Part shown: piece by piece, positions 9,051-55,646 of the stretch
How positions within the stretch are numbered: position 1 is the first letter of the stretch
Layout: every line of letters begins with the position of its first letter
Assembly (NCBI RefSeq): GCF_945980375.1
Contig: NZ_CAMFQO010000004.1
Span: forward strand, 1-64,000
Reading direction: 5' to 3'
Source: an uncultured Eubacterium sp.
GTDB taxonomy: Bacteria; Bacillota; Clostridia; Oscillospirales; Acutalibacteraceae
DNA length: 64,000 nt
The notes under the pieces: model-generated
What the model was told of the DNA's origin: nothing
The model's database searches: none
The model's input: only the letters and a program-made list of their open reading frames with translations
Position numbers and translations under genes: made by a program

Positions 9051-9104
9051 ATCCCCTCAGTCACCTTCGGTGACAGCTCCCCTTTATTGCATAAAAGGGG
9101 CGCC
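9051..9104. repeat. Dispersed palindromic repeat, single copy
   Basis: ATCCCCTCAGTCACCTTCGGTGACAGCTCCCCTTT-loop-AAAAGGGGCGCC: two adjacent hairpins (GTCACC/GGTGAC and CCCCTTT/AAAAGGGG). It is the same family as the copies at 50.8-51.1, 54.8-55.2 and 55.6 kb. The hypervariable first hairpin arm differs between copies, but both flanks (ATCCCCTCAGTC, GACAGCTCCCCTT) are kept. Confidence 0.85.
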
Positions 9105-50833: not shown

Positions 50834-51147
50834 TCCCCAAGATTGTTTTTATCCCCTCAGTCGTCATAAATGACGACAGCTCCCCTTACAATAAGGGGAG
50901 CCTTAATTCGTTATAGGATCGTTCGCGTGGCTCCCCTTGAAGCAAGGGGAGCTGTTGAGCACAGCGAAACTGAGGGGATTTACTTATTTACCTTTTATCC
51001 CCTCCGAGTGCTTCGCACTCACCGTCTCGCCTGCCGGCTCGGTCGGTGCTTCTGCATATTCGTGCAGAGGTCTCCACCGGAGACCCACACCCTTAATTAC
51101 ATTATAAGGGGAGGCAAAAAATGCTCCCCTTGTAATAAGGGGAGCCG
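50834..51147. repeat. Palindromic repeat array 1
   Basis: Starts with TTATCCCCAAGATTGTTTTT, then a unit ATCCCCTCAGTC-GTCATAAATGAC-GACAGCTCCCCTTACAATAAGGGGAGCC (50851-50902), an inverted unit GGCTCCCCTTGAAGCAAGGGGAGCTGTTGAGCACAGCGAAACTGAGGGGAT (50929-50979), a third unit from 50998 that is interrupted by a 65-bp nested palindrome (GTCTCGCC...GGAGACCC, 51023-51087), and a final ...GCTCCCCTTGTAATAAGGGGAGCC hairpin. The ORF-track protein at 50870-51196 is a translation of this array. Confidence 0.9.
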
Positions 51148-54793: not shown

Positions 54794-55210
54794 TATCCCC
54801 AAGGTTGTTTTATCCCCTCCGAGTGCTTCGCACCCACCTCCCCTTACAATAAGGGGAGGCAAAATTCGTTACAGGAACGTTCACGTGGCTCCCCTTGAAG
54901 CAAGGGGAGCTGTTGAGCACAGCGAAACTGAGGGGATTTACCTTTTATCCCCTCAGTCGTCATAAATGACGACAGCGTCTCGCCTCCCGGCTCGGTCGGT
55001 GCTTCTGCACTTTCGTGCAGAGGTCTCCACCGGAGACCCGCACCCCTTACAATAAGGGGAGGCAGAATTTGTTGCAGGATCGTTCGTGTGGCTCCCCTTG
55101 AAGCAAGGGGAGCTGTTGAGCACAGCGAAACTGAGGGGATTTACCTATTTACCTTTTATCCCCTCAGTCGTCATAAATGACGACAGCTCCCCTTACAATA
55201 ATGGGAGCCG
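54794..55210. repeat. Palindromic repeat array 2
   Basis: Opens with TTATCCCCAAGGTTGTTTT, the same left edge as array 1, and is in the same orientation. It contains about five units of the ATCCCCTC(AGTC)...GACAGCTCCCC/GGGGAGCC family in alternating orientation, including a second copy of the 65-bp nested palindrome (54976-55040) and two copies of the inverted unit GGCTCCCCTTGAAGC...CTGAGGGGAT. The last unit ends at the 3' end of the DUF559 gene. The ORFs at 54780-54965 and 55086-55274 are translations of the repeat. Confidence 0.9.
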
Positions 55211-55222
55211 ATATAGTATGGA

Positions 55223-55582
55223 TTATTTCATTCTTTGTTTAACGAGTGAATCGATTTTGTCGCAAACACCGTAAAAGTTTGAATTGATTTCGTAATTACT
55301 TACACGCAAAACAAGCAAACCGAACTGCTGCAAATACACTGTTCTGGCATCATCATACATTTTGCCCGACAGTTCATAGTGCTGTGAGCCGTCGATTTCC
55401 ACAACGAGCTTTGCTGATGAACAATAAAAATCAACAATATATTTTCCCAAAACCTTTTGTCTTGAGAACTTAACAGGATAGTCCCTAAGAAAATCGTACC
55501 ACAAATGACGTTCCTCATTTGTCATATTCTTTCGCAATTCCCGTGCGTTTTGCACGAGGGAAGGATTATACTTTCTATCCAT
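55223..55582 (-). CDS. DUF559 PD-(D/E)XK nuclease-like protein
   Basis: 119 aa, full length for DUF559. 'NARELRKNMTNEERHLWYDFLRDYPVKFSRQ' precedes the nuclease motif 'GKYIVDFYCSSAKLVVEIDGSQHYE', with the catalytic D (IVDFYC) and E-x-DG of the Vsr-like fold. It stands between two same-orientation copies of the palindromic repeat. Its ribosome site (AAAAGG of GGGGATAAAAGGTACAAAACTATG) lies inside the upstream copy. Homologues of Vsr cut DNA; the role of DUF559 is not established. The tight embedding suggests the gene and repeat move or act together (inference). Confidence 0.85.
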   Translation of the reverse strand: MDRKYNPSLVQNARELRKNMTNEERHLWYDFLRDYPVKFSRQKVLGKYIVDFYCSSAKLVVEIDGSQHYELSGKMYDDARTVYLQQFGLLVLRVSNYEINSNFYGVCDKIDSLVKQRMK

Positions 55583-55589
55583 AGTTTTG

Positions 55590-55646
55590 TACCTTTTATC
55601 CCCTCAGTCACCTGCGGTGACAGCTCCCCTTACAATAAGGGGAGGC
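55590..55646. repeat. Dispersed palindromic repeat, single copy upstream of DUF559 gene
   Basis: ACCTTTTATCCCCTCAGTCACCTGCGGTGACAGCTCCCCTTACAATAAGGGGAGGC. Direct orientation relative to the last unit of array 2, on the other side of the DUF559 gene. On the minus strand it follows gpmI by 9 bases, where its hairpins could end that transcript. Confidence 0.88.

Follow-up and report, generated by a model that had tools for sequence, protein, structure and literature searches.

Genes of DUF559, a widespread nuclease family lacking an assigned function, were found beside dispersed mirror-hairpin repeats in many bacterial phyla, and gene and repeats almost certainly form one genetic unit, which is probably mobile. 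We favour, with some reserve, the view that the two constitute one genetic system in which the DUF559 nuclease would cut its own repeat class and repair would carry out the copying; our best reading is of a RAYT/REP-like pair that appears to be built on an unrelated nuclease. The chance seems about even that the system represents a pan-bacterial class of mobile element, with a lone Vsr-like DUF559 nuclease as the helper that spreads triplex-forming mirror-hairpin repeats. Repeat class and protein family were each known already, and their pairing is new within the literature searched; a search outside bioRxiv and most subscription journals found no publication tying DUF559, PF04480, ycjD, or COG2852 to such repeats.

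Association of DUF559 Genes with Mirror-Hairpin Repeats

Each repeat copy consists, in this order, of a pyrimidine arm, a loop, a purine arm, a spacer, and a mirror of the purine arm (e.g., CTCCCC..GGGGAG..GAGGGG). This purine-motif architecture was termed the intrastrand triplex motif (TM, or PIT) by Holder et al. (2015; PMC4666352), who described mirror-hairpin repeats in >260 prokaryotic genomes, with E. coli and cyanobacteria among the examples, as dispersed, intergenic, and either single or in inverted pairs; a mobility gene was sought near TMs in that study and none was found, and DUF559 or ycjD is unmentioned there.

TMs were located with a consensus-free detector that used architecture only (pyrimidine arm, loop, purine arm, spacer, and a purine-arm mirror of at least 6 nt), with a distance limit of 100 bp in the window's family and 150 bp in the multi-phylum set; the window is the whole stretch of 64,000 nucleotides that was analysed. 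The family sample comprised 120 genomes, among which DUF559 was patchy (42 genomes), and provided 53 testable DUF559 genes. A TM adjoined 44 of these genes, as compared to 23 of 347 other ORFs from the same loci (Fisher p = 1e-32; control ORFs were called mechanically and DUF559 genes are mutually related, so that this p-value, like that for the multi-phylum set below, overstates the independent evidence), and TMs were present on both sides of 22 of the 53 DUF559 genes, as compared to 2 of the 347 other ORFs. Within the window's genus, a TM was found beside 19/19 DUF559 genes and 7/109 controls. The same pattern was obtained from a further, independent sample of 80 loci, taken from named genomes that span Cyanobacteria, Chloroflexi, Bacteroidota, Pseudomonadota, Nitrospirota, Patescibacteria-type lineages, and other groups (66/75 DUF559 genes vs. 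24/448 controls, p = 5e-53), and palindromes can be read directly beside E. coli ycjD and beside DUF559 copies of Neisseria, Synechocystis, Sinorhizobium, and Deinococcus. A reading of the window made from the sequence alone (hereafter, the sequence-only reading) had raised, as a check, whether DUF559 genes lie close to the repeat more often than other genes do; they do so by a large margin, also far outside the window's family.

The control ORFs of the family, the genus, and the multi-phylum set rule out chance juxtaposition, and a general habit of small accessory genes is ruled out by two such controls in the window's family, ParE (TM beside 1/29) and GIY-YIG (0/14). Intrinsic terminators were rejected as the cause, since they would flank control genes too and the mirror arm is no terminator feature. 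By genome, DUF559 and the repeats also co-occurred (p = 2e-5). Two genomes carried repeats and no detected DUF559 (G034, with seven copies and 98% complete; G150, with 11 class-C copies and 96% complete), in a sample consisting mostly of drafts whose contigs often stop at these repeats. Two records labelled human-faecal bacteriophage (L119 and L120; MT835749 and MT835756) contain DUF559 with flanking repeats; the labels are unverified, and the DNA may be bacterial.

The DUF559 Gene and Repeat Cluster of the Window

The window DUF559 gene, the sole copy found in a search of its 1.77-Mb genome, sits in a six-copy cluster of one repeat (Table 1). As the sequence-only reading had described, two repeats in the same orientation bracket the gene, an arrangement unlike the usual inverted pair, and the Shine-Dalgarno-like AAAAGG (CCTTTT on the plus strand) belongs to the upstream copy, being inside a conserved extension, ACCTTTTATCCCCTCAGTC, common to three repeat copies. 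The two bracketing copies were thus correctly recognised, but the repeats around the gene had been undercounted, with four more at 54811–55140 and a full-length pair at 50851–50979. Within the cluster, 54947–55063 and 55090–55140 make up a tails-out pair, and 54887–54937 makes up a second one with 54811–54862, which is full-length, MITE-like, and ~127 bp long; in the downstream bracketing copy, the mutated arm reads CTCCCA vs. GGGGAG. The insert of ~67 nt (GTGCGGGTCTCCGGTGGAGACCTCTGC...GCACCGACCGAGCCGG..GGCGAGAC) in copies 54947–55063 and 50998–51116 recurs in two congeners (L197 and L305).

Table 1. The DUF559 gene and the repeat copies of the window, with positions counted from the first nucleotide of the window.
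Feature	Positions	Strand	Evidence
DUF559 gene, 119 aa, Vsr-like PD-(D/E)XK / EDxHD-type nuclease	55223..55582	-	Pfam PF04480
Upstream mirror-hairpin repeat (TM), tail toward the DUF559 start codon	55598..55646	-	Sequence; TM detector; DNA fold z = -3.4
AAAAGG, Shine-Dalgarno-like, in conserved repeat-end extension (ACCTTTTATCCCC on the plus strand)	55592..55597	-	Extension in three copies
Downstream repeat, oriented like the upstream copy, with a mutation in one hairpin arm	55158..55209	-	Sequence; DNA fold z = -6.6
Repeat copy, inverted relative to both bracketing copies	55090..55140	+	Sequence; TM detector; DNA fold z = -3.3
Repeat copy with ~67-nt hairpin-rich insert between the two stem-loops	54947..55063	-	Sequence
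Repeat copy	54887..54937	+	Sequence; two 107-nt copies 93% identical
Repeat copy, CCGAG/CCACC subtype, left half of full-length pair	54811..54862	-	Sequence
Dispersed full-length tails-out pair of the window repeat; distance to the DUF559 cluster, 3.8 kb	50851..50979	.	Sequence; TM detector
Repeat copy with similar long insert, beside the full-length pair	50998..51116	-	Sequence
Solitary repeat copy in another part of the window	9053..9104	-	Strict pattern; TM detector

Window copies were recognised by the TM detector. In the window version of the repeat, the spacer holds a second stem-loop, and folding of single-strand DNA agrees with two stem-loops (z = -3.3 to -6.6 in three window copies). 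The published search rule admits loops of 1–6 nt (PMC4666352), whereas the second loop of the window repeat measures ~15–20 nt and has its own stem-loop; the window repeat works like a TM, yet lies outside the TM class by the published loop rule. Several copies from other phyla (e.g., E. coli and Sinorhizobium) have a 3-nt spacer. A strict repeat pattern found 20 copies in the window's genome (reversed-pattern control, 0), and a hairpin pattern found 33 (control, 0). The ends of the window repeat read GGGGATAAAAGG or similar, without the GTAG-type foot of REP sequences. A known RNA family was ruled out as the identity of the repeat, as an Rfam search with it returned zero families at the gathering level.

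The window ORF matched Pfam PF04480 (DUF559; YcjD-like, PD-(D/E)XK superfamily) with E = 7.1e-31 and 106.8 bits, against a cut-off of 20.6, and DUF559 was the only Pfam match on it. Five putative catalytic residues (E24, D51, E62, D64, and H68) show no variation among 48 sequences, that of the window being one of them, and a profile match to a solved DUF559 structure, PDB 3hrl of the NGO0050 protein, was obtained at 3.5e-30. The nearest solved relative outside DUF559 is PDB 3r3p (E = 6e-6 over 91 residues), deposited as a mobile intron protein, which we take to be the catalytic domain of I-Bth0305I. I-Bth0305I is an EDxHD homing endonuclease with extra DNA-binding regions, which homes with a group I intron (PMC3943268). 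YcjD had previously been placed in the PD-(D/E)XK superfamily, near Vsr (PMC1189080). A Caulobacter DUF559 protein, VsrA, has been tied to DNA damage in cells without cytosine methyltransferase, and a role in mismatch repair has been proposed for it (PMC12907096). Between relatives where it was measurable, dN/dS of DUF559 was about 0.05–0.23, with some synonymous distances saturated; this purifying selection indicates that the gene is kept functional. Matches to toxin B subunits in the structure-sequence search (E about 0.5–1) were attributed to chance.

Boundaries and Gene-Less Derivatives of the Unit

In pairwise comparisons of DUF559 loci, homology between genera often extends from ~54–57 bp 5′ of the ATG to ~24 bp beyond the stop codon; the outer edges of the flanking TMs thus bound the shared DNA and delimit a TM-ORF-TM unit of ~460 bp. 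The typical unit consists of a repeat, the ORF, and an inverted repeat, with heads out and tails toward the gene in 37/59 cases, as compared to 1/4 by chance. Dispersed pairs that contain no gene present the opposite arrangement, with tails outward; these tails-out pairs may be junctions of tandem or circular units. In many members (e.g., L089, L098, L099, and L110), the DUF559 reading frame runs on through the downstream repeat, which thus encodes the C-terminus (...SLPQSASLTAPSSEGA) and gives the protein an added tail.

Gene-less MITE-like elements of ~130–210 bp with inverted ends are dispersed in the genome beside the coding form. Congener G132 has such elements of ~200 bp, with inverted ends CTTTTATCCCCTCAGTC ... 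GACTGAGGGGATAAAAG, at several sites, as well as a complete gene-less pair directly 3′ of both of its DUF559 copies; the flanks of its gene-less elements, compared with the other loci of the DUF559 study, provided no informative empty site.

Three loci (L106 from G002, L107 from G003, and L108 from G018) contain DUF559 genes broken by frameshifts or stops and still flanked by repeats, which appear to be decaying units. Contigs end within or beside DUF559 units at L083, L089, L105, L109, L110, and other loci; DUF559 counts from drafts are therefore probably too low. In the E. coli sapF–fabI region (L112, L123, and L126), ycjD is followed by a second, partial copy of its 3′ end and then by a triplex-type repeat.

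Duplicate Units and One Empty Site

The two DUF559 copies of G132 have ORFs that are 99.4% identical, with two differences, both synonymous, and are located inside a repeat-bounded block of ~700 bp at unrelated sites. At the argF–bmp site of one of these copies, the sister species G124 has neither repeat nor gene; this is one site in a between-species comparison, and loss of the unit in G124 is the alternative. At argF, G136 presents repeats 3′, no DUF559, and a different downstream gene region. Neither a target-site duplication nor an exact target was definable from the one empty site, which was inspected by eye in a comparison of species whose divergence is too great for an exact join.

No clean empty site was found for the window unit or for ycjD. 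In a comparison of 24 loci for synteny at gpmI, the site of the window unit, DUF559 is present there only in G000 and the closest species, G124, and the downstream genes are too different for a clean join. Most of the queried ycjD region is held by 3365 of 5426 complete E. coli genomes, which puts the presence of ycjD at about 62%, and E. coli Nissle 1917, which has no ycjD, instead carries efflux-pump genes upstream of fabI.

Matching of Repeat Class and DUF559 Subtype

For 45 of 61 DUF559 proteins, the nearest protein relative in another genome was matched in repeat class, as compared to 31% expected (p < 1e-4), and in the genus set this held for 16/21, as compared to 6.6 expected (p = 1e-4); the class labels, here and below, were assigned from the repeat nearest to the gene by a simple rule picked after the data were seen, and the statistics ignore phylogeny. 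Such a match in cis is expected of any co-inherited unit, and a test in trans is more telling. Hairpins of three classes were counted genome-wide in 41 congeners. Class-B hairpins numbered 33, 16, and 37 in genomes with class-B DUF559 and ≤6 in genomes without a class-B gene; the fourth class-B genome, G141, where the loop differs, had 0 by this pattern. With four cis copies per gene subtracted, one-sided Mann-Whitney tests gave p = 0.008 for class A, 0.002 for class B, and 0.046 for class C, and permutation of classes among DUF559-bearing genomes gave p = 5e-5 for the trans match, values that share the labelling and the disregard of phylogeny just described. Two genomes, G121 and G157, presented 32 and 28 class-C copies, yet carry only class-A DUF559 genes.

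Proposed Mechanism and Alternative Explanations

The autonomous form of the proposed element would be a hairpin repeat, the DUF559 gene, and an inverted hairpin repeat, measuring ~460 bp in the commonest clostridial-type version, and solitary repeats and tails-out pairs would be its gene-less derivatives. DUF559 most likely recognises its own repeat class, as a hairpin or a triplex and probably on the single-stranded repeat at replication forks, and would then cut or nick at or beside the recognised repeat; host recombination or synthesis would copy the repeat, or the whole repeat-ORF-repeat unit, into the broken site. As PD-(D/E)XK nucleases alone join no strands, either host repair or some unseen partner would be required for movement. 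It is rather likely that DUF559 is a trans-acting helper of the repeats; that break-and-copy, over another chemistry, moves the unit is a more tentative proposal. Repeats in genomes without DUF559 (G034 and G150) and the surplus of repeats over the matching gene in G121 and G157 speak against a helper.

DUF559 could instead be a free-standing homing gene, which would cut older, independent repeats and spread only itself into them, leaving the repeats unmoved. Such a history would fit the homing endonuclease that is the closest solved relative outside DUF559, the location of units within clusters of repeats, as seen in the window, the many repeats that have no DUF559, and the argF site of G136, which has repeats and lacks the gene; however, dispersed repeats are more numerous where DUF559 of the same class is present, and the flanking repeats co-vary with DUF559 and are shared between genera to their outer edges, and we consider this explanation unlikely. 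A role in repair or policing, in which DUF559 would resolve repeat hairpins or triplexes and adjoin its substrate for co-inheritance, not for spread, seems improbable: while the Vsr-like fold, the strong purifying selection, and the link of Caulobacter VsrA to DNA damage and its proposed role in mismatch repair (PMC12907096) are consistent with it, the patchy presence of the gene, the duplicate units, and the empty site are typical of a mobile element rather than of housekeeping, and the larger numbers of matching repeats in genomes with the gene are the opposite of what policing would produce, unless DUF559 gives tolerance. Least probable and disfavoured is that the repeats are fragile, recombination-prone sites that gather DUF559 as an accessory gene inert on them, since this idea, to which the raised variability around E. 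coli triplex motifs (PMC4666352) lends itself, is at odds with the missing association of ParE and GIY-YIG genes in the window's family and leaves the fixed orientation and the trans class match unexplained.

Under the preferred reading, DUF559 as helper of its own repeats, the family provides a candidate helper, and the first, for a very common bacterial repeat family. DUF559 would then be the missing mobility gene of very widespread intergenic repeats, with a fold not known to move DNA alone, and a nuclease-only route of DNA spread would join the known transposase-based ones. If DUF559 and the repeats explain each other, two open questions merge into a single system that can be tested; as gene (ycjD) and repeat are both present in E. 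coli, a laboratory strain of this species would allow its study.

Comparison with Known Systems

The window repeat shares with TM or PIT sequences (PMC4666352) the purine-motif architecture and the dispersed, intergenic occurrence, singly or in inverted pairs, but differs in the second stem-loop within its second loop, where published loops have 1–6 nt. DUF559 has a detectable sequence relationship to I-Bth0305I (3r3p), as given above; in contrast to that enzyme with its extra DNA-binding regions, it consists here of the catalytic domain alone and is associated with no intron. The dispersed elements of ~130–210 bp, with inverted ends and beside a coding form, resemble MITEs and their autonomous parents; unlike in MITEs, the coding form is a lone nuclease with no DDE transposase, and the ends face the gene in the opposite way to those of the gene-less pairs.

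RAYTs (TnpA-REP) are HUH Y1 transposases, and REP hairpins have a GTAG-type tetranucleotide at their foot. DUF559, by comparison, is a Vsr-like nuclease in which Pfam recognised no Y1 motif, and the hairpins of its repeats are of the mirror type and differ from those of REP; the likeness to REP and RAYT drawn in the sequence-only reading therefore does not extend to the gene, which is not a Y1 transposase. As an analogy it stands, with one gene, dispersed palindromes, and a class match in cis and in trans: as in REP/REPIN and RAYT systems, short palindromes occur singly or in inverted pairs, the gene is flanked by repeats, and repeat class tracks gene subtype.
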